Part shown: positions 4,916 through 47,518 of the stretch, piece after piece
Layout of the letters: each line of letters opens with the position of its first letter
Position numbering within the stretch: the first letter of the stretch is position 1
Assembly (NCBI RefSeq): GCF_900099775.1
Contig: NZ_FMTM01000008.1
Coordinates: forward strand, 186,001-250,000
Direction: 5' to 3'
Length of the DNA stretch: 64,000 nt
Source: Rhizobium mongolense subsp. loessense
GTDB taxonomy: Bacteria; Pseudomonadota; Alphaproteobacteria; Rhizobiales; Rhizobiaceae
Position numbers and translations under genes: made by a program
The notes under the pieces: generated by a model
The model's database searches: none
The model's input: only the letters and a program-made list of their open reading frames with translations
Told to the model about the DNA's origin: nothing

Positions 4916-4972
4916 TGGTGCGGGTAGAGAGACTTGAACTCCCACGCCTTGCGGCACCAGAACCTAAATCTG
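4916..4972 (-). pseudogene. 3' half of host tRNA-Leu(UAG), split by the prophage
   Basis: Read on the minus strand this is the 3' part of a tRNA-Leu: second side of the anticodon arm, variable arm, T arm with GTTCAAGTC, acceptor strand TACCCGC and an encoded CCA (4918-4916). The first 15 bases are the attachment core. Upstream sequence is phage DNA with no D arm or acceptor strand, so no functional tRNA can be made here. Joined to 47518-47476 it gives an 85-nt tRNA-Leu with anticodon UAG, a perfect 7-bp acceptor stem and a perfect 5-bp anticodon stem. Confidence 0.9.
4958..4972. other. attL core
   Basis: CAGAACCTAAATCTG, identical to attR at 47476-47490. It covers the anticodon loop and both anticodon-stem strands of the host tRNA-Leu. 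Identity ends abruptly on both sides. Confidence 0.9.
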
Positions 4973-6119: not shown

Positions 6120-6204
6120 GCCCAGTTGGCGGAATTGGTAGACGCACTTGGTTTAGGTCCAAGCGCCGAGAGGTGTGGGGGTTCGAGTCCCTCACTGGGC
6201 ACCA
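6120..6204 (+). tRNA. Phage-encoded tRNA-Leu(UAG)
   Basis: An 85-nt complete tRNA with encoded CCA (6202-6204). Acceptor strands GCCCAGT and ACTGGGC pair over 7 bp. The anticodon stem CTTGG/CCAAG encloses TTTAGGT (anticodon UAG), the variable arm is long as for leucine, and the T arm holds GTTCGAGTC. It has the same anticodon as the host tRNA-Leu that the prophage destroys, but most other positions differ. Only TTTAGGT is shared with the attachment core, so it is a poor integration target. It is packed between the integrase start and the end of the regulator gene (overlap 6192-6204, opposite strand). A weak promoter-like pair, TTGCCA at 6071 and TTAACT at 6093, lies upstream. Confidence 0.95.
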
Positions 6205-6627: not shown

Positions 6628-6641
6628 ATACACCGGTGATT
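6628..6641. promoter_or_regulatory. Palindromic operator-like site 1
   Basis: ATACACCGGTGATT, a slightly degenerate copy upstream of the winged-helix regulator gene. Confidence 0.55.
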
Positions 6642-7590: not shown

Positions 7591-7626
7591 CTTGGTAATC
7601 CTCAGGGCAGCCATCATCAGCCCGCG

Positions 7627-7669
7627 CATGCCAAGCGCAGGGACAGGCCCCAGAGAGGCCCGTTTCGGC
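7627..7669. repeat. Direct repeat copy 1 (about 42 bp)
   Basis: Begins CATGCCAAGC and ends GGCCCGTTTCGGC. It is about 80% identical to 8106-8147. It lies in the leader between the 56-residue gene and the gene starting at 7590. Confidence 0.65.
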
Positions 7670-7844: not shown

Positions 7845-8065
7845 TACGCGCCCTCCCCGTTCAGCTTGGCGACTGCGGCCATGATTTCAGCCTGCGTGTC
7901 GCCAGTGGTGATGACTTTCAGGTCTTTGCGCTTGGCCTCTCCGCTTTCGAGATAGCCAGCGTATTCCGCCCTCACGTCTTCCCGCTCATAAGCGCCAAAC
8001 TCAGGCGACCAGCGCCCGTTAATGCGAATGACCAGCGTGTGATATTTCCTCGGCTTTCGTGCCAT
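7844..8065 (-). CDS. 73-residue phage protein of unknown function
   Basis: A basic small protein starting MARKPRKYHTLVIRINGRWS and ending with a helix (DTQAEIMAAVAKLNGEGA). The ATG at 8065 is preceded by AAGGAAATGAGGG. The fold appears to be a few strands plus a helix, as in the following 56-residue protein, with which it is coupled by an overlapping stop/start. No family was recognised. Confidence 0.55.
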   Translation of the reverse strand: MARKPRKYHTLVIRINGRWSPEFGAYEREDVRAEYAGYLESGEAKRKDLKVITTGDTQAEIMAAVAKLNGEGA

Positions 8066-8105
8066 TCCCTCATTTCCTTCAATCGGCAGCCATCTTCAGG
8101 CGAGC

Positions 8106-8147
8106 CATGCCAAGGCCCGCGACAGGCCCGCTAAGGCCCGTTTCGGC
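8106..8147. repeat. Direct repeat copy 2 (about 42 bp)
   Basis: Begins CATGCCAAGG and ends GGCCCGTTTCGGC. It sits in the gap between the GP88-like gene and the 73-residue gene, as copy 1 sits upstream of the gene at 7590. It may be a shared leader or promoter module. Confidence 0.65.
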
Positions 8148-8152
8148 ATTTA

Positions 8153-8166
8153 ATTCACCGGTGAAT
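8153..8166. promoter_or_regulatory. Palindromic operator-like site 2
   Basis: ATTCACCGGTGAAT, the perfect 14-base palindrome and closest match to the consensus. It lies 4 bases beyond the GP88-like stop codon. Confidence 0.75.
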
Positions 8167-8169
8167 GAA

Positions 8170-8937
8170 TTAGCCCACGACAAAGCCCGAGCGGTCACCC
8201 TTGGCAGCGCCCTTTGCGTAGAGGCCGACAATCACGCCCTTGGGATCAAGGAAACGTAGGTCAGTTTCATCGCCATTGAAGACGGGGCGATTGAGATTGA
8301 AATCTGTAGTAGTCGCCAGACCGGCGCAATCGTAGCTGGCGAGTGTGTCGCGTAGCTCCTTAGTGCGATAGACCACAGCGATGTTAGCGCCCGTCTCATT
8401 CGCTGCTTTCACGACTGCCTCAGCATAGGCCGTGCTAGCGTGGCTGTAGCTCAGGGTGAGCGAGTAGTTGACCGGCAGCGCCCGATAGGCCCGCTTGTAA
8501 ACCTTCGTGTAATCGTAGAATTGCACCTCAGGGAACAACTCGAAGACTGAGCCACGCTTGTCGCCACGGCTTGCGAAGTGCGCGACTTCCCATTGAATGT
8601 CTGAGGTGCCGTTGAGGCGAACCGCTGGCTTGACGCCCTTGCGCTCGCAGTAGGCAACGAAGCGCTCCAGATCGTCGACCAGATCAGCCATGAACTGAGT
8701 ACGGCTGGCCAGATAGCGCTTTGTCTTGTTGATCCGCGCCACCTGCACATTGTTGTAAGCGCCGCGTCCTGCCGTGTTCAGGCAGCCCTTAACGCAGCCC
8801 GCTTGTTCAGCCATTGGGCAGACGTTCGAGCCTGCCAAAGTGAAGGGCGCAAGGTACATGATAGCCGTTTCATACTCGCCATCACCCTTGACCGTTTTCG
8901 CGTTGTTTCCTGAACGGATGAGAGTGCCCTTGAACAT
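8170..8937 (-). CDS. GP88-like phage protein
   Basis: A 255-residue protein resembling the family named after mycobacteriophage gene product 88. The N-terminal section MYLAPFTLAGSNVCPMAEQA, then GCVKGCLNTAGRG, carries the family's conserved Leu-Ala-Pro and three-cysteine region (Cys-x7-Cys-x3-Cys). The rest (VRLNGTSDIQWE, FYDYTKV, NYSLTLSYS) follows the same family pattern. The biochemical role is unknown; the cysteine cluster suggests metal binding. AGGAGA lies 7 bases before the ATG at 8937. Palindromic sites lie directly upstream (8955-8968) and downstream (8153-8166), so this gene is probably under prophage repressor control. Confidence 0.65.
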   Translation of the reverse strand: MFKGTLIRSGNNAKTVKGDGEYETAIMYLAPFTLAGSNVCPMAEQAGCVKGCLNTAGRGAYNNVQVARINKTKRYLASRTQFMADLVDDLERFVAYCERKGVKPAVRLNGTSDIQWEVAHFASRGDKRGSVFELFPEVQFYDYTKVYKRAYRALPVNYSLTLSYSHASTAYAEAVVKAANETGANIAVVYRTKELRDTLASYDCAGLATTTDFNLNRPVFNGDETDLRFLDPKGVIVGLYAKGAAKGDRSGFVVG

Positions 8938-8954
8938 GTGAAATCTCCTTTTCG

Positions 8955-8968
8955 TTTCACCGGTGAAT
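8955..8968. promoter_or_regulatory. Palindromic operator-like site 3
   Basis: TTTCACCGGTGAAT, in the leader of the GP88-like gene just upstream of its ribosome-binding site. Confidence 0.7.
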
Positions 8969-9107
8969 AGGACTAGATGCAGCTATCCCGCTACGCCCAG
9001 TGCTACCCACCAACCCCGAAGGGTCGATGTTAGCCGTTCACGATGTCAAAGAACCCTGAAGCGCCACCCTCAGCCCCGCCCCGTTTCCGGTTTGGTGCAA
9101 TACATAT

Positions 9108-9121
9108 ATTCACCAGTGGAT
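9108..9121. promoter_or_regulatory. Palindromic operator-like site 4
   Basis: ATTCACCAGTGGAT. It is followed at once by TTGATT and, 18 bases on, GTAAAT, a weak rightward promoter candidate for the AbiJ-like gene at 9253. With site 3 it brackets the divergent control region. Confidence 0.65.
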
Positions 9122-9252
9122 TGATTGTAAAGAGGCAGATATTTGTAAATTGGCGATCATCTTCTAAGTCATTGGTTCTGAGTCTATATTTCTATCTTGT
9201 AAGCAAATTTCTGAGTCGTGTGTGGCACGGCCAACGAAACCTTGAGAGTGGA

Positions 9253-10098
9253 ATGGATAACGAACGGCACCTTATTTCATTCGAACAAGCTGAAGGCCTT
9301 GTACCGCTGCCTTCGCAACTCAAGCTGAAGGAAGTAACGCCGATAATAAAGTCTCGGCTTTGGAACGTGGTGCATCAAAAGATAGTCGCCAACACAGGCG
9401 ACTACGCCCTCTTGAAGGGAGTCATTCAACGGGTCGCCCGTGCCTATATTATTGAGCGAACCAGTTACCTTATCGACGAATGGAACAACAAGGCTCCAGA
9501 ACTAACGCAACTCTGGAGGAGGCATTTCCTGCCACAAGCCAGTTATTCTGAGACACTCGGCTTCATCGAATGGTTCTTGCGTCAACTGCAAGACGAATAC
9601 ACTAGCAAATACGTCGAAAATATTCTTGTCCGGGAGCGAGCCGCATATCGATTAGTCTCGAATTCGATCATGCCTATCGCCTCTCCCGAAGAGGGCCAAG
9701 CTATCATACAAGCCGTAGAGAAGGCATCAGCGTTAGGCCTTGATGGCGTTCGCTCCCACCTAACAAAGGCGTCGACACATCTCACGGCTGGAAGTTTCGC
9801 AGACTCCGTCCGGGAGAGCATTCATGCGGTTGAAGCCATTGTATTCAACAAGACCGGCATAACTGGAAGCTTCAGCGCGGCGATCAGAGAGCTTAACAAA
9901 GCAAGCCCTATGCATGACGCATTTAGGGAGGCATTGGTTAAGCTCTACGGCTACACGAGCAACGAGCAGGGAGTTCGCCACTCGCTTTTCGATCAGGGTG
10001 ACGCGAACGTCACTGAGAGAGATGCGCTTTTTATGCTTGGTATATGCGCTTCATTCGTGACGTATCTGCTGAAAGCAGAGGGCGCGCCAAAAGAATAG
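9253..10098 (+). CDS. AbiJ/HEPN-like abortive-infection protein (rightward)
   Basis: A 281-residue protein, one of only two phage protein genes on the plus strand. The ATG at 9253 starts the conserved part: SFEQAEGLVPLPSQLKLKEV, then TPIIKSRLWNVVHQKI, as in AbiJ-type N-terminal domains, where a short basic start is followed by R/SxLWNV. The C-terminal half (FADSVRESIHAVEAIVFNKT, LVKLYGYTSNEQGVRHSLFD, DALFMLGICASFVTYLL) looks like the helical HEPN-type domain that follows in these proteins, with the RH pair as possible RNase residues. Abortive-infection HEPN proteins cut RNA after phage infection. The exact domain name is uncertain. It probably protects the lysogen against other phages. Confidence 0.6.
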   Translation: MDNERHLISFEQAEGLVPLPSQLKLKEVTPIIKSRLWNVVHQKIVANTGDYALLKGVIQRVARAYIIERTSYLIDEWNNKAPELTQLWRRHFLPQASYSETLGFIEWFLRQLQDEYTSKYVENILVRERAAYRLVSNSIMPIASPEEGQAIIQAVEKASALGLDGVRSHLTKASTHLTAGSFADSVRESIHAVEAIVFNKTGITGSFSAAIRELNKASPMHDAFREALVKLYGYTSNEQGVRHSLFDQGDANVTERDALFMLGICASFVTYLLKAEGAPKE

Positions 10099-10112
10099 AC
10101 AGTTATTTGCTG

Positions 10113-10331
10113 TCAGGCTTGAGCGGCTTCGAGCGCTTTGATGACCTTCTCAGGCGCGCCGTGAACTAAAATAGCACCACCCTGAAATCCGTGGTGGTTC
10201 ACCAGCCAAATTGCTGATGTGCCGGGCAAATAATTGTCTACGCACGTGACAAACGCGGGATTGACGTAAACCTTAGCGGAGGACGGCTTTGTCTCGCCGA
10301 TCTCGACTTTATTGAAAGTTACAAAGCCCAT
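10113..10331 (-). CDS. 72-residue FlbD-like small protein
   Basis: The ATG at 10331 has a perfect AGGAGG 8 bases upstream, so the longer reading is rejected. The product reads MGFVTFNKVEIG, VYVNPAFVTCVDNY and PEKVIKALEAA. The layout (VNP, a beta hairpin, then PEKVI helix) resembles small FlbD-like proteins. The role is unknown. Its gene is convergent with the AbiJ-like gene, the two stops lying 14 bases apart. Confidence 0.6.
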   Translation of the reverse strand: MGFVTFNKVEIGETKPSSAKVYVNPAFVTCVDNYLPGTSAIWLVNHHGFQGGAILVHGAPEKVIKALEAAQA

Positions 10332-10645
10332 TGATGCGCCTCCTTTAGACCGCTTTATTGGTACCACGAAAAGGCATTATCACCCCCAAAGAAACGGGAG
10401 CGAGGACATTCTGTCAACCGCTAGTTATCGCCCCATCGGCTGCACATCACTGCTGAATGCAGATCATTCATCTGGTGTGCATGTCAATGAAATCAATGGC
10501 TTAGTCAGCGTGTGTCACGTCGATGTGGCATTGATGCGCCGTTTGTGGCCGATGAAGGGTTGTTTGCGTGGGAAAGAGGGGCAGCGGGGGGAAGCCGGTG
10601 TTCCTTATATCTGATTTGCCCTCTCAGATTTTTGCTGCGAACATT
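10332..10645. other. 314-base region between accessory genes
   Basis: No gene supported. It must contain the promoter of the small leftward gene at 10331, whose leader includes its strong ribosome-binding site. No palindrome of the ATYCAC family was found here. Confidence 0.4.
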
Positions 10646-11647
10646 CTAAAATCTGCTTACGAGCGACTTTATCCAGCCCATACAGGTGTCGATGGCCCAT
10701 TCGTTTTGCGGCAGAGAGAATTGCGGCATTGGCTCACCACCGGGGCCATGTCCGTGGGGATTTCTGACTTTCCGGAAAAAGTCCAGCAGGATGTCCTCTT
10801 CCCACTGCTTCAGGTATCCATTCTTCTTAAGGTTCTGCACAAAACTGGCTGCACCGGGTTCCTTTCCGGATGTCCAACCTTTCTCACCGGAAATGATCTT
10901 TAGGGTGCTCTCAAGCGCCTTTGATGCGTACAGGCTAGGATCACGACCGTTCTTGTCGCTTCTGTCTAAGGCCTCCAACATGTCAACCTCGACGTTTGCC
11001 CATCTCGCATGGTCGATCACCTTCCAGAAAGGCTGCCGTATCTGCTCTTCGACAAGATTGTCGCCCGTAAACTGAAAGTAACCGGCATGATACGCGAGGC
11101 GCATGTCCGCTCTTGCTAGCCTGACGTTCAATTCGTTGACGTTCTCAGAAAACCACTTATTCAACTTGTCGTTCGCATTTTTCGCTCGATCTTCCTGAGA
11201 ACCCGGTAAACTCACGCCGTGCACGGTCTTTGCACGCATGTCTTGAAGGCGCGCCTGTTTGAGTTTCTCGGGGAGCTTCGCGTTCTCTCTCTCGATCTGT
11301 TGTTCACGATAACGGAAAACAAGCTCAATCAGGCTCACACGATCTTTGATGAAGGTGTCCTCATTTTGCAACGCTAGCGGACGAGCCTGCAGAAATCCCT
11401 TGGTCGTTGTGTCTGGGTTGCTATTCGTTCCATCGAAGTCATTCACGCCCAGCTCCATTGCGAGATGCCGGAGGGCAGCCTTAAGGGTATGGTCTCGATT
11501 TTCAAATGGATTGGAGCCGATGTCGAGTGGGAAGAGCTGTTCAGTCAGCAGCCTTGAAGCTTGCACGAAGAGCCGCCGTCGATCATCCGTGAATTCATCC
11601 CAGATGCGAACATCTTTGTATCGGAATGTGAAGATATCTACGAGCAT
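10646..11647 (-). CDS. AbiJ/HEPN-like abortive-infection protein (leftward)
   Basis: A 333-residue protein. The N-terminus reads VDIFTFRYKDVRIWDEFTDD, RRRLFVQASRLLTEQLFP and LAMELGV, a conserved block of a family of Abi-like proteins. The C-terminal 110 residues, EALDRSDKNGRDPSLYASKA then LESTLKIISGEKGW, and FFRKVRNPHGHGPGGEPMP, form a helical domain with an RNPxGHGPG motif, typical of HEPN-type abortive-infection C-termini (R-x4-H RNase-like). Such proteins sense phage infection and block growth of the infected cell. It stands alone on its transcript, between a small gene and a winged-helix gene. The subfamily name is uncertain. Confidence 0.7.
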   Translation of the reverse strand: MLVDIFTFRYKDVRIWDEFTDDRRRLFVQASRLLTEQLFPLDIGSNPFENRDHTLKAALRHLAMELGVNDFDGTNSNPDTTTKGFLQARPLALQNEDTFIKDRVSLIELVFRYREQQIERENAKLPEKLKQARLQDMRAKTVHGVSLPGSQEDRAKNANDKLNKWFSENVNELNVRLARADMRLAYHAGYFQFTGDNLVEEQIRQPFWKVIDHARWANVEVDMLEALDRSDKNGRDPSLYASKALESTLKIISGEKGWTSGKEPGAASFVQNLKKNGYLKQWEEDILLDFFRKVRNPHGHGPGGEPMPQFSLPQNEWAIDTCMGWIKSLVSRF

Positions 11648-11753
11648 TCAAGTCCATCCATCAGTGTCTCGATGAGGTGAAACATAAAGGCTTCCCCGAG
11701 CGCCCGATATACGCACAGTTCAGGATTTGACTTCTGCAGAGAATCGTGGGTAG

Positions 11754-11969
11754 TCACCCCTCAGGCAACCTCTTGGTCACCCTCAGGCAATTGCCCGGAA
11801 GCAGCTCGATGACCTTCTGAGCTTCCAGCGAAAGGAGGACGTTGGTGATCTCGTCCTGGCTGAACCCTTGGGCCACGAGAGGCTCCCCTATGGCGTATAG
11901 ATCAAGGGTTCCCTCAGGCTCAGGTAGGAGCTTCAGTAAGGCTACCTTGGTCTGGTCGTATCTATTCAC
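11754..11969 (-). CDS. 71-residue winged-helix protein
   Basis: It begins at a GTG (11969) in the sequence AGGTGTCAAGTG. The product reads KVALLKLLPEPEGTLDLYAI, GEPLVAQGFSQDEITNVLLS and LEAQKVIELLPGNCLRVTK: three helices and a two-stranded wing, so a small winged-helix DNA-binding protein is likely. It follows the putative membrane nuclease gene directly and shares an imperfect palindromic leader (11970-12003) with that gene (12908-12946). It could be the regulator or antitoxin-like partner of the nuclease; this is inference. Confidence 0.5.
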   Translation of the reverse strand: MNRYDQTKVALLKLLPEPEGTLDLYAIGEPLVAQGFSQDEITNVLLSLEAQKVIELLPGNCLRVTKRLPEG

Positions 11970-12003
11970 TTGACACCTGATAATCGAGCGGCAGCGAGAT
12001 TAT
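11970..12003. repeat. Palindromic leader repeat, copy A
   Basis: Starts TTGACACCTGATAATCGAGC and ends GCGAGATTAT. On the minus-strand RNA it can fold with arms AUAAUC/GAUUAU. It overlaps the stop codon of the upstream gene and ends at the GTG of the winged-helix gene. Confidence 0.6.
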
Positions 12004-12893
12004 AAGCTGGGCTCAACAGCTGTCTCACTATAACGGTAGATCAAGACCTCAACTTGGAATGGGTAGTTAGACGCCAACTTTTTGGCCCGATTGATCAACT
12101 TAAGTTGCTCTGCGTCGCTTGTATCATCCGAGGTAATGAACACCAGTATTAGCTTCATCTTAAAGCTGCGGGGGACGTTCATGTCCTTTTTCAACTCTTT
12201 GACACGATCGTACACCTGACCGACAACTGCGAGCGGATAAGATGCACGCGCTGTATACTTAACTTCCACGACCGTTGTTTCGTTCAGAGCCATGGATACC
12301 GCGTCGAACACCAGATTTGGTCTGTTCGATGGTGACACGTTTGTCGCGAACAACAGTCCTCGTTCCCTTTCCAGTTTGGCGAGAACCCTCTGCTCTGCGT
12401 CCTTTGTGCGCTTCCTTAGGAATCTCGTGCGCTCTTCCGAAAATTTCGAGTATGAAACCTGAGATGAGGTTTTGGGCGGCGAAGGCAGTGGAGTATCGTT
12501 CTCTTGTACTGGAAGGAGCTCCGCCTGATTTGTTTCTTCGACAGGTTCCGCGTCCTCCAGGAAGGAACGTCCCGCTTCATCAAGCCCAGCTTCGGCCACT
12601 TCCTCTTGAGCCTTAATTTCCACCGCTACTGGTGACGCCTTGACCAGAAGGGTGAGCCAGTTCGTCTCGTCTTTGAAGTCAGACGGGGCATACAGCACCG
12701 TGTGGTTCCAGTTCAGTACTGCAAAAAACAGAACAACCAGCAGCGTCGGGAAGGTCATCAAGAACCAAACATAGATGTCCTGAGTTTCCTTACCGAGGAA
12801 AGGCAAGATCGCTGTCCCGCTCACCTCCGCGAAACAGGCGAAGATGGCCACAACGCTTAATGGATTTTTAACGTGGGTCATCTTCTCGAGCAA
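12000..12893 (-). CDS. Membrane-anchored putative PD-(D/E)XK nuclease
   Basis: About 297 residues if started at the TTG at 12893, which has GGGGGAG 5 bases upstream; a GTG at 12914 is the other option. The N-terminus has two transmembrane helices (PLSVVAIFACFAEVSGTAIL and IYVWFLMTFPTLLVVLFFAV). An acidic linker and a charged segment (SEERTRFLRKRTKDAEQRVL) follow. The C-terminal domain holds NLVFDAVSMALNETTVVEVK, which fits the D...ExK signature of restriction-like nucleases. The later text (VVGQVYDRVKELKKDM, KLILVFITSDDTS) fits the same fold. The protein is not recognised. A membrane-tethered nuclease beside Abi-like genes suggests a defence or superinfection-exclusion role, which is inference. 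Confidence 0.5.
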   Translation of the reverse strand: MLEKMTHVKNPLSVVAIFACFAEVSGTAILPFLGKETQDIYVWFLMTFPTLLVVLFFAVLNWNHTVLYAPSDFKDETNWLTLLVKASPVAVEIKAQEEVAEAGLDEAGRSFLEDAEPVEETNQAELLPVQENDTPLPSPPKTSSQVSYSKFSEERTRFLRKRTKDAEQRVLAKLERERGLLFATNVSPSNRPNLVFDAVSMALNETTVVEVKYTARASYPLAVVGQVYDRVKELKKDMNVPRSFKMKLILVFITSDDTSDAEQLKLINRAKKLASNYPFQVEVLIYRYSETAVEPSL

Positions 12894-12907
12894 ATCATCT
12901 CCCCCTA

Positions 12908-12946
12908 TTGACACCTGACAATCGAGCGAAAGCGAGATTTGTCAGG
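12908..12946. repeat. Palindromic leader repeat, copy B
   Basis: Starts TTGACACCTGACAATCGAGC and contains perfect 9-bp arms ACCTGACAA/TTGTCAGGT around a 16-17 base loop. It differs from copy A in the arm sequence, but pairing is kept in both, which suggests selection for structure or for a dimeric binding site. Confidence 0.65.
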
Positions 12947-12956
12947 TGCGCGCGGC

Positions 12957-13049
12957 CTAGCTGTACACATTGATGAGCCCGAAGAGCAATCCCACACCCA
13001 CCACGAGGGCGATCATCCAGCGGTCGCTTTGCTTGAACCAGTTGATCAT
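12957..13049 (-). CDS. 30-residue membrane peptide
   Basis: MINWFKQSDRWM followed by one hydrophobic helix (IALVVGVGLLFGLINVY). The ATG lies 2 bases after the lipoprotein stop, with AAAGG in the lipoprotein's last codons as ribosome-binding site, so the two are coupled. The pairing of a lipoprotein and a tiny membrane peptide near the terminase recalls lysis or exclusion accessories, but the function is unknown. Confidence 0.5.
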   Translation of the reverse strand: MINWFKQSDRWMIALVVGVGLLFGLINVYS

Positions 13050-13051
13050 GG

Positions 13052-13459
13052 TCAGCCTTTCAGCCGAGCTGCGTAGCGTTCGCAGCCGCCGATGTTGCCA
13101 TCCCAGTCCCAATTCTCGATGATCCCGCCTTGGCTCGCGATGAGCCTGAGCTTGCAGGAATAGTCGTAGGACTCCGTGCGGGTGCCCTGAACGGTGCTGT
13201 AGATCGCTTGGCCGTTGACGTAGGTCGTGGCTGTGTTGGTCGTGGGGACCGTGTACGTCCCGCTGCTGCTGGTGTTCCAGACGTATATCTTCTTCCCAGC
13301 GATGTTCTGTTCAGCGTCAGGGTAGCCCAGCTTGGCGAAGGCTGCCTGCACAGGCTGGCCCTTAAGGCTCTGCATGGCTGGCTTAGCGTCTTCCATCGTC
13401 GTGCAGCCAGAGGCCACAGCGAGGGAGATTAGCGCGAGTGTCTTGGTGAGTGTCTTCAT
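13052..13459 (-). CDS. Phage lipoprotein
   Basis: A 135-residue exported lipoprotein. The signal peptide MKTLTKTLALISLAVASGC ends in a lipobox (VASGC) with the modified cysteine at 19. The mature part has GQPVQAAFAKLGYPDAEQNI, a strand-rich Thr/Ser segment, and a second cysteine pair (YSCKLRLIA and GGCERYA). It lies downstream of the large terminase gene and of a phage promoter (13672-13688), so it is probably a late gene. Lipoproteins at this place can act in superinfection exclusion or as Rz1-like lysis factors; neither is shown here. Confidence 0.7.
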   Translation of the reverse strand: MKTLTKTLALISLAVASGCTTMEDAKPAMQSLKGQPVQAAFAKLGYPDAEQNIAGKKIYVWNTSSSGTYTVPTTNTATTYVNGQAIYSTVQGTRTESYDYSCKLRLIASQGGIIENWDWDGNIGGCERYAARLKG

Positions 13460-13671
13460 GATTGCCCCAGAATGAAGCCTGAGAGATACACAACCGGGGA
13501 ATCTGGGGTCAACCCTTATAGGTTACCATTAAGGTTTTCCTTGGGGATGGGAGGAGGTGGATGAAGGTTTCTCCCACCCTCATCCATCATAAAGATCATT
13601 CGGAGAGGGAACTCTTTTTCATCAATCCCCTCTCCTCTCCTTTATTCGTGGTCTTCCCCTTCCGGGTTCTC

Positions 13672-13688
13672 CTTAAGTGGGTGGTAAT
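13672..13688 (-). promoter_or_regulatory. T7-type phage promoter
   Basis: On the minus strand ATTACCACCCACTTAAG, start expected at G13672. It lies just past the large terminase gene and would transcribe a 210-base leader into the lipoprotein and accessory genes. Aligned without gaps to the T7 promoter (AATACGACTCACTATAG) it matches at 12 of 17 positions. Confidence 0.8.
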
Positions 13689-13701
13689 TAAGGGTTGGTC
13701 T

Positions 13702-15390
13702 TCAACCGATGTTCATCCACCTAAGGCTGTCCTGTCCCTGATGTCCGAAGACATGCTCAGCGAAGCTTCTCAGCTCCTTCTCAAGCAGCTCTGCCTTATG
13801 GTCGTCAGCGGCCTTTTCCGTGTCTCGGGCCATGTGCTCAACCCAGTAGGTCACAGCGATGGCGAGAGCATCAAGACGGTCGTCGTTGATCAGGGCACCG
13901 CGATCACGGGTGATGCGGGTGAGCTGGTGGAAGAGCTGGCGATGAGGTTCAGCCTCGAAGTCACGCTTGATGACCCCTGCGTCGACGATCAGGCGGTGCT
14001 GGTTCATGACCGGCTCCAGAACGTCACAGATGCGGCGTTCCTTCTGGGTCGAGTGCTTAACCTCCTCGATGGTCACGGGATGGACACGGGTGAACACCGG
14101 CTTCAGGAGCTGCGTGAACATGCCGTCACCGAAGTTGGCTTCGACGATCACGCGGTTCACGTTGTGCGTCTTACCCAGCATTGCGAGGGACTTGAGGGTC
14201 GCTTCGGAGTAGCCTTCCTTGAAGCCGCCTGAGGCGACCATGAAGAGGTTGCCGTGAAGTATCTTGACGATGGCGTAGGCCGTCTCGTCACCGCCCTTAC
14301 CGGACGGGTCGATAGCCATGACCGCACCGGAGTACTCGGCCATCTCGTTGGCGATCCACATCGGGCGATGCAGACGGTCGCCCTGGAGGCCAACTGTCGG
14401 GAGGTCGGAAATCACCTTATCGGGGTCGTTGCACCAGACCAGCTTGGCGGGAGCCATGCGGGGGTCGAGCGAGGCGACGATCAGGTCGGAGAGCTTCAGC
14501 GGGTACTTGTCTTGGTCGCTGAGCGAGGTGTCGAGCATGAACTGCAGGGCGAAGCCAGAGCGGGCGTAGGACGCCTCACGCTCGATCAGGTCTTGCTCTT
14601 GGAAGCGCTGAGGGTCGACCGGCTGGCGCGGAGCTGCACCGGCCTCGATCATGTCCATGACAAACTTCGAGAGGCGACCGAGGTAGCGCTCGGGGTCGGT
14701 CGGTACACGAGCAGGCCAGATGCGGATTTCATAGCCGCGTTCAGGCAGCCTGTTGTAAAGGCTCATCTCGGTCTGCGGGGTGCCGAGGTAGATGATGCGG
14801 CTCGTGGGGAGCGGCTTCAGAATAGCGTCGAACTCCTTCACACGCTCCGAGAGCTGGTCGCGCTGGAGCTGGGTCATGGAGTTGTTCGGAACCTCGACGT
14901 CATCCGCGATGATGATGTCAGCACGGGAACCAGCGAGCTGGCCGGTGATGCCTACGGACTTGACGGAGGGTGAGTGAGAGTTACGGGCTGGGCCGACATC
15001 GAAGGCCACCATCGAATCACGCTGCCCGGGTCGGGCGCGGAGGTGGGCAAAGATCGGCATCTCAGCGATCAGCCTCTTGGTGAAGCTGGAGAATTGGTCG
15101 GAGCGGTCCTTCGAGGCCGAGACCACGAGGATGTTGAGCTGCGGGTTGCAGTAGAGAAGCCAGACGACGAAGGCCGAGGTGACGTAGGACTTGCCCACGC
15201 CTCGGAAGGCTTCGATCACGCAGCGCTTGGGACCGTGCTGCAGATACCCTGCGATGTCGTATTGGACGGCTGTCGGGACTGGGAGGTTGAGGTGCTTCCA
15301 CACCACGAAGAGGAAGTTTCGAAAGTCCTTCTTCAGGGGGTCGATAGCGGGACTTAGATGGGTGCCTGACTTCAGGCTATCGGCTGTCAT
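13702..15390 (-). CDS. Terminase large subunit (T7 gp19-like)
   Basis: A 562-residue DNA-packaging motor. The ATPase domain shows CVIEAFRGVGKSYVTSAFVV (Walker A), ADIIIADDVEVPNNS (Walker B, tandem acids) and IIYLGTPQTEMSLYN (coupling motif). The nuclease domain follows with AVMAIDPSGKGGDETAYAI and NRVIVEANFGDGMF and ends DDRLDALAIAVTYWVEHMA. Length and order match the T7 family. The ATG at 15390 sits three bases from operator-like site 5, whose GGTGGAT half doubles as a possible ribosome-binding site. Confidence 0.95.
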   Translation of the reverse strand: MTADSLKSGTHLSPAIDPLKKDFRNFLFVVWKHLNLPVPTAVQYDIAGYLQHGPKRCVIEAFRGVGKSYVTSAFVVWLLYCNPQLNILVVSASKDRSDQFSSFTKRLIAEMPIFAHLRARPGQRDSMVAFDVGPARNSHSPSVKSVGITGQLAGSRADIIIADDVEVPNNSMTQLQRDQLSERVKEFDAILKPLPTSRIIYLGTPQTEMSLYNRLPERGYEIRIWPARVPTDPERYLGRLSKFVMDMIEAGAAPRQPVDPQRFQEQDLIEREASYARSGFALQFMLDTSLSDQDKYPLKLSDLIVASLDPRMAPAKLVWCNDPDKVISDLPTVGLQGDRLHRPMWIANEMAEYSGAVMAIDPSGKGGDETAYAIVKILHGNLFMVASGGFKEGYSEATLKSLAMLGKTHNVNRVIVEANFGDGMFTQLLKPVFTRVHPVTIEEVKHSTQKERRICDVLEPVMNQHRLIVDAGVIKRDFEAEPHRQLFHQLTRITRDRGALINDDRLDALAIAVTYWVEHMARDTEKAADDHKAELLEKELRSFAEHVFGHQGQDSLRWMNIG

Positions 15391-15392
15391 TA

Positions 15393-15406
15393 ATCCACCT
15401 GTGGAT
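15393..15406. promoter_or_regulatory. Palindromic operator-like site 5
   Basis: ATCCACCTGTGGAT. It abuts the terminase start codon. On the mRNA strand its right half is AGGTGGAT, a plausible Shine-Dalgarno, so binding could affect more than transcription. Confidence 0.7.
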
Positions 15407-15515
15407 ACAACAGGCCACAGGGACTCACAGACGCGCCTCAGCGCTTCCGGCTAGGGTAGTAGCCAGAAGGTCACTGAAGCACGTCCTGAGTCAGACCTGC
15501 GGGGCTGTGAGGGGT

Positions 15516-15737
15516 TTAGTTGTAGGAGGGACGGTCGTCGTCGCCCGTGAACGGGAGATCGTCGGCAAGGCTCTTCAGAGGGCTGCCTTCCTTGGGTACT
15601 GCGTCGATGTTGTTGTCCTTGAGGAACTGGCGGGCAACGTTCAGCTCGGCTGCCGTCACCTCACCGCTACGGACTTTATCGAGCAGCTTCTGCGCCATCT
15701 CCTCGTGGAGCTGGGCGAGGATTTTGTTCAGGTCCAT
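15516..15737 (-). CDS. Terminase small subunit (T7 gp18-like)
   Basis: A 73-residue acidic helical protein. MAQKLLDKVRSGEVTAAELN followed by VARQFLKDNNIDAVPKEGSP is the usual pattern of T7-like DNA maturase A. The position just ahead of the large subunit fits. Its start overlaps the preceding stop (TAATG). A 125-base gap without a gene separates it from the large subunit. Confidence 0.8.
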   Translation of the reverse strand: MDLNKILAQLHEEMAQKLLDKVRSGEVTAAELNVARQFLKDNNIDAVPKEGSPLKSLADDLPFTGDDDRPSYN

Positions 15738-15985
15738 TATTTGTAGCTCAGATAGGCGCTGATCGCGGCCACGATGAGGGCCAGGATCGCGGTGATGTTG
15801 GTGATGAAGGATTGGTTGGTCGATGCCTTGGCCTTGAGGGAGGCGATATCCACCTCCCCCGCCGACATCCGCCCCTCTAGCGTGTCGATGCGCTGGGATT
15901 GCGCGGACGCGAGACTGATGAGCGTGTCCACCTTGCCCTCGACCCTGCCAATCAACAGCAGGGCCTCGGTGTTCATGTGTTCCAT
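15737..15985 (-). CDS. Small coiled-coil membrane protein, holin candidate
   Basis: 82 residues: an N-terminal amphipathic coiled coil (LIGRVEGKVDTLISLASAQS QRIDTLEGRM) and one C-terminal transmembrane helix (FITNITAILALIVAAISAYL). This layout is found in hemolysin XhlA-like and class II/III holin-like proteins. Its position between tail fibre and terminase genes matches T7 gp17.5 (holin). The start overlaps the preceding stop in a TAATG. No lysis activity is shown by the sequence alone. Confidence 0.6.
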   Translation of the reverse strand: MEHMNTEALLLIGRVEGKVDTLISLASAQSQRIDTLEGRMSAGEVDIASLKAKASTNQSFITNITAILALIVAAISAYLSYK

Positions 15986-16410
15986 TATAGCCCCGCTGCC
16001 CAGACCCAGAGGGCGTCTAGCTGCTCCGGGGGGATTGCGAGAGCCTCAGCGAGGTCGAGCACTGCGATATGAAGGCGCTCGAAGGTGGTCGCCTCCGTCA
16101 GCTCGATCTTCATCATTTCCTTGTCCATATCGGACAGGGCGAGGCTGTCGACGGTGGCTGTAACGCTGGCCTTAGTGATACCGATGCTAGCCGCTGCGAG
16201 CCAGAACTGCCGGGAGGTCAACTTCGGCATCCGTTCACGAAGCTCTTCCAGAGGTACTGCAGCAAACGCCTTCAGGCCGAAGTCCCACTTCAGGTGGGCG
16301 TACTCAGGTCCGGTTGAAACTTCGATACCGCCGTCAGGCACCGAGCCGATGTAGGAACCAAGATAGTTACCTGCACCATCGACGTAGAAACGTTGAGTGT
16401 TGTCGGTCAT
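15985..16410 (-). CDS. Tail-fibre-associated protein
   Basis: A 141-residue protein directly after the tail fibre gene; the ATG follows the fibre stop by one base. The C-terminal half (LTSRQFWLAAASIGITKASV, EATTFERLHIAVLDLAEALA, IPPEQLDALW) resembles the helical module common at the ends of phage tail fibre and fibre assembly proteins (DUF4376-like). It probably assists folding or is a fibre accessory. The N-terminus has a beta-rich segment (RFYVDGAGNYLGSYIGSV). Confidence 0.6.
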   Translation of the reverse strand: MTDNTQRFYVDGAGNYLGSYIGSVPDGGIEVSTGPEYAHLKWDFGLKAFAAVPLEELRERMPKLTSRQFWLAAASIGITKASVTATVDSLALSDMDKEMMKIELTEATTFERLHIAVLDLAEALAIPPEQLDALWVWAAGL

Positions 16411-16411
16411 G

Positions 16412-17965
16412 TTAGCTTGCCTTGAGAATGAGCTTGGAATCGGCTGCGGAAGGTCTCGATGACGAGCCAGCACCGGTATTCCTATCCGGGATAAGGGCCA
16501 TTACATTGACCGCTCCCATGCGGCAGTAGATATTCGTCGCGTCAGCCCAGAGAGCAACGCCGTAGCCAGCTTCTGATCCACTATGGTCGATGCTACCGCC
16601 AAGCAGCATTTCTTGGCCGTTGCTCCAATTCATGTAGGACGTAGTCGGCGTCCAGTATGCGGCAATCTGGGTCGGCTTATAGCCAAGACCGTGAGCAACC
16701 GTCAGGAGACCTCCGAAGGTGACAGCCAACTGTCCGCTGGTGAACATGCGTGCCACTTCGCGGTAGTTCGTACCATCGTGGGAGAACACGATGCCGCCAT
16801 CATTTGGCAGGCATAGCAGGTCGCCGCTTAGGTCGTTAGCAATACGGAAGCCTGCTGCGTCTCCGCTACCGTCCCGGTGCTGTATGTAACCCTGCCGAAC
16901 AGTGGCTTTCCAGAACGACAAATAGGGGTCAGAAGTCGTGTCTGAGGTAATAATCCTCAACGCTTCTCCACCGCCTGTAATCGTCGCCATTCCAGTGATT
17001 TGCGGGGAGGCGCTGTCTGCTTTGGCGTTCAAAGCTGTCTGCTGCGCGGTCGAAACTGGAAACGCCGAAGGTGCCAGTCCATCGACCGTATCGGCGTCGA
17101 GACCAGAACCCGCACCGTCAACCGTCTTGATCTTCGCCAGCACATCGGCGGCAGTGTAAGCCGACGAGTTCAGCTTCGTGCCGAGAGATGTATCGATCTC
17201 CGTCTTCGTGTAGTAGCTCGACGGGTCGAACAGAGCAGCGTCCTGAGCCGACTGAGCGGCAGCATCAGCGGAAGCCGCAGCGGCGTTCTTCGAGGCCAGA
17301 GCATCGGCAGCGCTTGCCGCAGCTTCGGAAGCCTTGGTCGTGGCCGTGTTCTTGGACGTGTTCGCAGCCGTCGCAGAAGCGGCAGCTTCGGAAGCCTTGG
17401 TGGTCGCGGTGTTTGCTTGGGTCGTCGCCGTCGATGCCGAACCGGCTGAAGCGGTCGCGGAATTTGCCGAGGCGCTTGCCGAGGAAGCTGCATCGCTGGC
17501 CTTCTGGGTGGCCTGCACGAGCTGGGAAGTCATCGCCGTTTCGGCCCACCGCTTGTTCACTGCGTCCTGCGGCTGCGTCGGATCGAGAAGGTTGGCAATG
17601 CGGCGCTGCAAAGCAGAGAACGAACCATCCTCCGTCACACCGAGAGAAGCCTCACCGAGGTCAAACGCTTCCTGCGCGAGGTAGAAGACCTGCAAGGTGG
17701 CGAGATCGAGATCGCTTTCGACGAGCGTCGAGCCGTCCACGAAGTCGACCATCACGGTGTCACGAGGGGTAACTCGGCGTCTGTCAACGATTGCGCCAGC
17801 AGCCGGGGCTGTGGCCGTCTGGATAGAAGTTTCCGACAGCCAGGTGTAGGAGACAGCAACGCCATTCACCTTCACCTGAACGTGGGTCTTAGAGAGGTAG
17901 GGAAAAGGTACCGTAAAGACGCGGGTAGTCCCATCCCCGAGGGATTGCGCATAGGCAAGAGCCAT
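16412..17965 (-). CDS. Tail fibre protein (T7 gp17-like N-terminus)
   Basis: A 517-residue fibre. The ATG at 17965 starts the conserved N-terminal virion-attachment domain (SLGDGTTRVFTVPFPYLSKT HVQVKVNG). A long Ala/Ser/Thr heptad region (about 165-265) should form a trimeric coiled-coil shaft. The C-terminal region (GLGYKPTQIAAYWTPTTSYM) has the look of a receptor-binding tip. Host range is probably set by the C-terminus. A terminator and palindromic site 6 lie upstream, so its expression may differ from that of the internal virion genes. Confidence 0.85.
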   Translation of the reverse strand: MALAYAQSLGDGTTRVFTVPFPYLSKTHVQVKVNGVAVSYTWLSETSIQTATAPAAGAIVDRRRVTPRDTVMVDFVDGSTLVESDLDLATLQVFYLAQEAFDLGEASLGVTEDGSFSALQRRIANLLDPTQPQDAVNKRWAETAMTSQLVQATQKASDAASSASASANSATASAGSASTATTQANTATTKASEAAASATAANTSKNTATTKASEAAASAADALASKNAAAASADAAAQSAQDAALFDPSSYYTKTEIDTSLGTKLNSSAYTAADVLAKIKTVDGAGSGLDADTVDGLAPSAFPVSTAQQTALNAKADSASPQITGMATITGGGEALRIITSDTTSDPYLSFWKATVRQGYIQHRDGSGDAAGFRIANDLSGDLLCLPNDGGIVFSHDGTNYREVARMFTSGQLAVTFGGLLTVAHGLGYKPTQIAAYWTPTTSYMNWSNGQEMLLGGSIDHSGSEAGYGVALWADATNIYCRMGAVNVMALIPDRNTGAGSSSRPSAADSKLILKAS

Positions 17966-17987
17966 GTGTGTGTCTTTCTTGGAAATG

Positions 17988-18016
17988 AAAAAGGCCCCCG
18001 AGTTTCCCCGAGGGCC
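17988..18016 (-). terminator. Terminator ahead of the tail fibre gene
   Basis: Minus-strand hairpin GGCCCTCGGG-GAAA-CTCGGGGGCC (10 bp with two wobbles and a GNRA-type loop) followed by TTTTT. It lies just after the stop of the gp16-like gene. Confidence 0.75.
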
Positions 18017-18020
18017 AGCC

Positions 18021-18034
18021 ATTCACTGGTGGAT
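18021..18034. promoter_or_regulatory. Palindromic operator-like site 6
   Basis: ATTCACTGGTGGAT, placed between the gp16-like stop codon (18039) and the terminator hairpin. Confidence 0.7.

Positions 18035-47475: not shown

Positions 47476-47518
<43 letters not shown>

Follow-up and report, generated by a model that had tools for sequence, protein, structure and literature searches.

A two-helix membrane protein with a predicted PD-(D/E)XK nuclease domain in the accessory region of a T7-like Rhizobium prophage

SNIPE (PD-lambda-1) is a membrane-anchored nuclease that, in the available part of its description, cuts phage DNA during injection and becomes toxic once its anchor is removed (PMC13190303). 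Temperate T7-like phages of Rhizobium, in turn, have an attachment (att) motif within tRNA-Leu and a low-G+C "early" region located behind maturase B, as set out in the sections of PMC8631192 that were covered. Here, we analyze a 64,000-nucleotide stretch of Rhizobium mongolense subsp. loessense (contig NZ_FMTM01000008.1, positions 186,001 to 250,000; hereafter the window, whose coordinates are used throughout). It contains a T7-like Rhizobium prophage that is kin to the published Paadamvirus/vTRX32-1 group. Behind its terminase gene lies an accessory stretch that encodes a membrane protein with two predicted helices and a predicted PD-(D/E)XK nuclease domain, for which we tentatively propose a role in prophage exclusion.

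A membrane protein with a predicted nuclease fold

12000..12893, minus strand: two-helix membrane protein with a predicted PD-(D/E)XK domain, 297 aa (PHROG 26238, E=4.5e-34; AlphaFold; PDB matches)
12912..12948, minus strand: hairpin conserved ahead of the membrane gene (stem of 12 pairs, in five phages)

The membrane gene likely starts at TTG 12893, which follows a purine-rich stretch and lies clear of the hairpin. This start, also given in a preliminary description of the region, is preferred over 12914 because the longer open reading frame (ORF) extends into the conserved hairpin. The same description had spoken of a membrane nuclease that it did not recognize, and the libraries bear this out: the only match is PHROG 26238, of unknown function, and no Pfam, NCBIfam or PADLOC model scores above its cut-off.

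An AlphaFold2 model based on 51 alignment rows (predicted local distance difference test, pLDDT, 83.8; predicted template modeling score, pTM, 0.68) shows helices at residues 11-32 and 35-62, joined by a linker of low confidence to an alpha-beta domain that is modeled with confidence. Specifically, residues 148-291 follow the order alpha-beta-beta-beta-alpha-beta-alpha-beta, with block-mean pLDDT >90 from 151 to 290. Compared with the PDB by VIA-align, the model matches AF1548 best (Z 8.6, root-mean-square deviation 3.2, 115 residues aligned), the HerA-DUF complex reaches Z 8.0, and many nucleases, including LmuA, Can2, EndoMS, McrC and FokI, score Z 6 to 8, where values <8 may reflect a common arrangement. 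Most of the best 50 VIA-align rows are entries that we take to be PD-(D/E)XK proteins; RNA polymerase Rpb5 subunits are also among the matches listed. A Foldseek search of viral models yielded three matches passing 0.001, the best of them named restriction endonuclease, and a PDB sequence search with a 6-row profile found no relative (best E 0.13).

The predicted fold contains D197 and E210-V-K212, the D...EVK signature that had been noted by eye, and F196, D197 and E210 are nearly invariant among relatives. Across the 51 aligned rows, the aspartate is present in 49, the glutamate in 47, the lysine in 36 and the helix glutamate (E167) in 41, with D, E and K together in 36. The alignment draws on 55 distinct long proteins and includes that of the window; omitted were those of RHEph21 (L002; D, E and K present by eye) and L109 (divergent; by eye it keeps D and E and lacks K), and two with an unrelated C-terminus (L079, L099). 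On the run of nuclease matches together with the aligned motif, the C-terminal domain is assigned to the PD-(D/E)XK fold, as predicted by the model. In the homologues of phages H66 (L070) and F116 (L075), the motif aspartate is replaced and the lysine is unaligned, and these proteins perhaps bind without cutting. The short inter-helix loop and the positive N-terminal residues suggest, by a weak rule of thumb, that the membrane part probably has its two ends on the cytoplasmic side.

Spread and alternative forms of the family

Relatives of the membrane protein are scattered. By tblastn, six of 50,697 phage records match, representing four phages, two of them entered twice. A single-protein scan of genome contigs returned no relative, and alignment scans then gave 53 loci in genome contigs and 61 in viral contigs. 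Judged by record titles, the family extends over Pseudomonadota, Bacteroidota, Verrucomicrobiota, Planctomycetota and others. Within the window's own phylum, 6/398 genomes of a spread sample match at E<=1e-10 (the window's genome included), and the DNA of one short form is matched in 38 of 5,426 E. coli genomes. All seven annotated records examined call the protein hypothetical or unknown. A literature search recognized no publication on the two-helix family, a weak test of its absence in print given that the family lacks a name. Relatives were collected via helix-domain peptide patterns, which biases the collection toward that domain, and the locus-finding peptide motif missed 7/120 loci.

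The 95 distinct proteins comprise 53 with a nuclease-type C-terminus, 32 short forms and 10 with other C-termini, one of which (L041) gives weak TPR matches, none above the Pfam cut-off. The nuclease profile was built from the 51-row alignment, so that the 53 positives are largely circular and the 10 negatives are the informative part. Mean pairwise identity is 0.608 in the two-helix membrane (2TM) part vs 0.198 in the nuclease part, and 18 residues in and around the helices, including E23, Q38, W43, P49 and D72, are invariant. No Pfam or NCBIfam match above cut-off was obtained for the 2TM domain in the proteins scanned. PHROG 26238 is matched by the window protein and by 9/9 2TM relatives scanned; the library assigns no function to this group, in which fused and other forms occur together with 2TM-only ones.

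The short forms are coupled to a partner of about 89 residues. After exclusion of two short forms truncated by contig ends (L084, L043), the partner is the next gene in 29/30 complete short forms, with gaps of -37 to +6 bases, and in the remaining one (L117) it lies 1.9 kb further on. It was not found at any of the 71 long-form loci (63 distinct proteins, each with >130 residues). The EKP1 partner matches PHROG 26297. In an E. coli prophage (L121, 12000-12571), the short two-helix gene overlaps its partner, which was confirmed by tblastn; the pair sits between lysis genes and terminase, and both genes are annotated hypothetical. Because fused and coupled forms alternate, the C-terminal domain and the 89-residue partner may serve one and the same membrane domain in equivalent ways, which is the strongest hint provided by the family. 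The same alternation suggests a single function for the two-helix domain, combined with modules that can be exchanged.

The gene neighborhoods were compared using 110 chromosomal and 57 viral neighbors out of 178 candidates, a set to which the simple gene caller adds false ORFs; left out were eight from the duplicates L021/L037, two very long genes and one L070 ORF. Chromosomal long forms have no recurrent neighbor, with no Pfam or PHROG family in >2 of the 110. Among the first 25 of 117 lines, PADLOC reports PDC-S42, AriA, Old, AbiLi and a methyltransferase beside them; this survey had no control, and no enrichment is claimed. Around the viral long forms, families of terminase (up to 4 members each) and of portal (2) turn up repeatedly, including those of the window-like element L062 and of one H66 copy.

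The accessory stretch and its cargo

4961..4972, minus strand: prophage end, att 12-mer CAGATTTAGGTT (exact match to the PMC8631192 sequence)
8170..8937, minus strand: GP88 gene, left-end landmark of the accessory stretch in window coordinates (Pfam PF17338, E=2.9e-48)
9253..10098, plus strand: AbiJ-NTD4 / PADLOC PDC-S32 gene (Pfam AbiJ_NTD4, E=3.1e-12, above cut-off; PDC-S32, E=1.3e-54)
10113..10367, minus strand: 84-aa gene without assigned function (ORF only)
10369..10645, no strand: DNA conserved in relatives, separating two cargo slots (66-71% identity to relatives)
10646..11647, minus strand: AbiJ-NTD4 gene with R-x4-H motif (AbiJ_NTD4, E=7.5e-9, 36.7 bits vs cut-off 34)
11754..11969, minus strand: 71-aa protein, probably winged-helix (family scattered among related bacteria; single-sequence model)
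11970..12001, minus strand: second, damaged hairpin copy ahead of the winged-helix gene (32-nucleotide repeat, 91% identical)
13052..13459, minus strand: small lipoprotein-like gene (by eye), PHROG 3716
13702..15390, minus strand: terminase large subunit, T7 type, landmark (NCBIfam termin_lrg_T7, E=8.8e-211)
47479..47490, minus strand: opposite prophage end, att 12-mer (exact second copy)

The prophage is delimited by the two exact copies of the att 12-mer, for which 0 are expected in the window. A tRNA-Leu lies at 6120-6204, a Pfam scan identifies an integrase gene, and the T7-type RNA polymerase belongs to PHROG 414. Across 8001-16000, the closest public phages are vTRX32-1, RHEph01 and RHEph21, all classed as Paadamvirus. 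The preliminary description had placed an accessory block in a temperate phage, and both the base composition and the variable content among relatives agree: G+C is 50.5-52.1% in the four accessory genes vs 59.6% for 13702-44000, and 50.0-52.1% in scan windows spanning 9001 to 13000.

The same description treated the four genes as a single block. All four are present, but the relatives show two separate insertions rather than one unit. One extra piece in the window, ~1.35 kb long, lies between the membrane gene and position 10645 and holds the winged-helix and leftward AbiJ genes; the other, of ~0.9 kb, lies between 9142 and 10328 and holds the rightward AbiJ gene. At the same two places, L062 encodes a 176-residue protein without convincing match and a 199-residue protein whose single match, a short one, is to PHROG 19745 (function unknown, E 3.4e-5). 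As L062 carries other genes at both places and RHEph01 a PDC-S32 homologue at the second, the two places constitute cargo slots, with AbiJ-type cargo recurring in one. The conserved DNA between them could be an early promoter region. PADLOC, applied to one short form, one partner, three slot proteins and five further types of C-terminus, matched only the L062 176-residue protein, by two marginal matches (best E 0.024) that are taken as chance. Mapping these slots in temperate Rhizobium T7-like phages makes swap experiments straightforward.

The membrane gene occupies a further variable place. It occurs in 4/6 distinct Paadamvirus-type elements (the window, an R. anhuiense prophage, RHEph21 and L062), always in the order terminase, PHROG 3716 gene, membrane gene, and the more distant L063 likewise carries it. 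By tblastn, it is absent from RHEph01 and vTRX32-1. RHEph01 has the lipoprotein-like gene and, in place of the membrane gene, one for a different 291-residue protein, membrane-bound by eye; in vTRX32-1, this position is taken by a 180-residue gene that matches a transposase (PHROG 1191, E 9.2e-6). The PHROG 3716 gene is common to 4/5 relatives tested and was not found in vTRX32-1 (tblastn). Judged by this distribution, the membrane gene is prophage-borne cargo in a swap site behind the terminase.

Both AbiJ-like genes that had been described at first sight stand up to library searches. The rightward ORF spans 9043-10098, its homologue-conserved part begins just behind ATG 9253, and its PDC-S32 match in PADLOC is nearly whole-length (model positions 5-280 of 285). 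RHEph01 (L157, 112-939) carries an intact PDC-S32 homologue in the matching place (62% identity over 276 residues); it is misannotated as a short fragment plus an opposite-strand ORF. No account of PDC-S32 was found in a literature search. HEPN domains follow the motif rule R-x4-6-H. The leftward gene contains RNPHGHGPG, as first reported, and its one homologue, 43% identical, has RNPLGHGPG, in which R, N and the second H are kept. This homologue is the only one in 199 genomes besides the window's own, and none was found in the phage collection. The two window genes give no BLAST match to each other and are, by their family matches, separate defense-type cargo.

The small gene at 11754-11969, earlier called winged-helix, is present, and its winged-helix nature is probable, to judge from its model and weak matches. 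No family scores above cut-off, the best Pfam line being the winged helix HTH_MCM7 (E 0.08). The best of five single-sequence AlphaFold models has pLDDT 78.6 (others 49 to 72), and most of its matches are winged-helix proteins, with weak E-values (best 0.011; none <=0.001). Homologues occur in 13/297 genomes of the bacterial family, its own included, at scattered places. Immediately downstream of the small gene comes the leftward AbiJ gene, and the sole AbiJ homologue found elsewhere (L145) is likewise preceded by a small gene that by eye resembles a helix-turn-helix gene; for this reason, the winged-helix gene is more likely a regulator of the AbiJ gene, as suggested by these two cases.

The hairpin ahead of the membrane gene is found in the window, RHEph21, the R. 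anhuiense prophage, L062 and vTRX32-1, and a pattern search did not find it in RHEph01. In the alignment, 93.1% of cells are paired vs 17-38% in slid controls, two pairs differ on both sides, and 3/6 rows leave one pair open; the folding energy is -19.5 kcal/mol (z -6.05). Among 500 shuffles, 49 match the count of double-changed pairs, 11 the covariation score and all 500 the further pair types, in what is a small sample. The second copy folds weakly (z -0.31), and the core pattern occurs twice in the window vs 0 expected. Viral contigs hold the core in five stretches, two of which are the contigs of the window phage and L061; matches in L146 and L149 were rejected, as they lie inside an ORF, in near-identical genes of an unrelated phage. 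The hairpin may be a processing or regulatory site that doubles as a module boundary. The idea that the 32-nucleotide repeat is a multiply used phage promoter was dropped, as the window has only two copies. A scan of 8900-13700 gave six promoter-like sites (shuffles 3.5, standard deviation 2.1) and six terminator-like sites (5.0, standard deviation 2.3), and no excess is claimed.

Additionally, a palindrome, TTCACCGGTGAA, has 14 matches in the window with <=2 mismatches vs 2.33 expected. Exact copies lie at 8154-8165 and 8956-8967 and near copies at 6629, 9109, 47375 and 47451; the other 8/14 are located elsewhere, from 18022 to 44731. Among six stretches of relatives, L008 alone has a copy with <=1 mismatch. 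The copies by the MarR-like regulator, by GP88 and upstream of the RNA polymerase are candidate lysogeny operators. The window scan found no candidate operator from 9120 to 18022, and for this reason the accessory block need not be silenced in the lysogen. The early region also contains a 45-nucleotide imperfect direct repeat (7606-7650 and 8085-8129, 78%), possibly a duplicated regulatory or gene-start element.

Possible functions and comparison with known systems

The reading that we favor, while holding it tentatively, is that the membrane protein, expressed in the lysogen, acts in prophage exclusion at a membrane site, where its nuclease domain cuts or blocks. The lysogen would thereby be protected against other phages: the conserved helices would dock at the host inner-membrane site of DNA entry, the tethered nuclease would cut, or its domain would block, DNA as it emerges, and tethering would spare the host chromosome. 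Several observations weigh against this proposal. The short forms carry no nuclease domain, and the conserved part of the family is the 2TM domain and not the nuclease, the reverse of what is reported for SNIPE in its paper. A Foldseek search of the PDB gave no match at E<=0.001, though its list is rich in nucleases. An intact D/E/K is missing from 15/51 rows, six of which differ by K to R alone and nine of which lose more, phages F116 and H66 among them; furthermore, the copies in these two phages have portal genes on one side and virion genes on the other, the position expected of late lytic genes. Because F116, H66 and others lost catalytic residues, cutting cannot be the only function of the family, and the stronger conservation of anchor over nuclease, which a plain anchor does not explain, suggests a specific partner for the helices or an activity that they exert themselves. 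A serious rival, though a less likely one, is that the two-helix domain is itself the active part, forming a DNA-entry block or pore at a conserved membrane target, with the C-terminal domain or the 89-residue partner sensing or restraining the helices and the nuclease fold mainly binding nucleic acid. This would fit the identity values of the two parts, the invariant residues around the helices, the lost catalytic residues and the pairing of one 2TM domain with other C-termini (10/95) or a coupled partner. However, the motif aspartate and glutamate are kept in 49 and 47 of the 51 rows despite a mean domain identity of 0.198, which argues for selection on catalysis in most members.

We consider it unlikely that the protein is a lytic-cycle host-takeover nuclease, which would degrade host DNA or supply nucleotides while membrane-held near replication or packaging. 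The position of the gene downstream of the terminase on the same strand, the placement of the F116 and H66 copies and the recurrent terminase and portal families among the viral neighbors would suit such a role, but the gene is missing from some close relatives and chromosomal copies lack a recurrent neighbor. To our knowledge, takeover nucleases are not usually tethered, which also counts against it. Very improbable, finally, is the initial suggestion of a single exclusion unit made up of the winged-helix gene and the membrane nuclease. The two are adjacent on the same strand, each preceded by a copy of one 32-nucleotide element, but tblastn finds the winged-helix gene in 0/121 other membrane-gene loci (some of them duplicates) and the membrane gene in 0/18 loci of winged-helix homologues (~1.5 kb each side). 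The adjacency is thus not conserved outside this phage, and relatives carry the membrane gene without its neighbor.

The exclusion proposal can be widened into a more speculative one, for which the chances are modest: a modular exclusion platform in which a conserved two-helix docking domain, common to phages and chromosomes across several phyla, would serve one host membrane entry site with interchangeable cytoplasmic modules, namely a PD-(D/E)XK nuclease, TPR-like and other domains, or the translationally coupled 89-residue partner. Docking at a conserved entry site, if true, would lead to a host factor on which many phages depend. In any case, a scattered and apparently unstudied phage and bacterial family gains an architecture, a predicted fold and a testable mechanism.

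Compared with the Paadamvirus/vTRX32-1 group (PMC8631192), the prophage shares the att sequence, the tRNA-Leu, the terminase region and a low-G+C variable region past the terminase; the covered sections of that paper place cargo in a different hot spot, past the RNA polymerase, and name no defense gene for the slot behind the terminase. Both AbiJ-type genes resemble the AbiJ-NTD4 proteins, as far as these are covered in PMC3710099, by matching AbiJ_NTD4 above cut-off.

SNIPE is the closest demonstrated mechanism that was found. The covered part of its description (PMC13190303) presents a widespread one-gene system, an inner-membrane-anchored nuclease with a cytoplasmic catalytic domain, and these features are predicted for the window protein as well; as its N-terminal anchor, it has two predicted helices, whose topology we infer. 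No DUF4041 or GIY-YIG match was obtained for it at E<=1 in Pfam. The protein studied in the SNIPE paper has one helix, DUF4041 and GIY-YIG, with the nuclease most conserved and the N-terminus variable (PMC13190303, in the part covered), whereas the window protein has two predicted helices and a predicted PD-(D/E)XK domain, and its helices are most conserved. As such, the two would be alike in logic, by analogy, and the platform, if true, would represent a second, independently built class of entry-site defense beside SNIPE.

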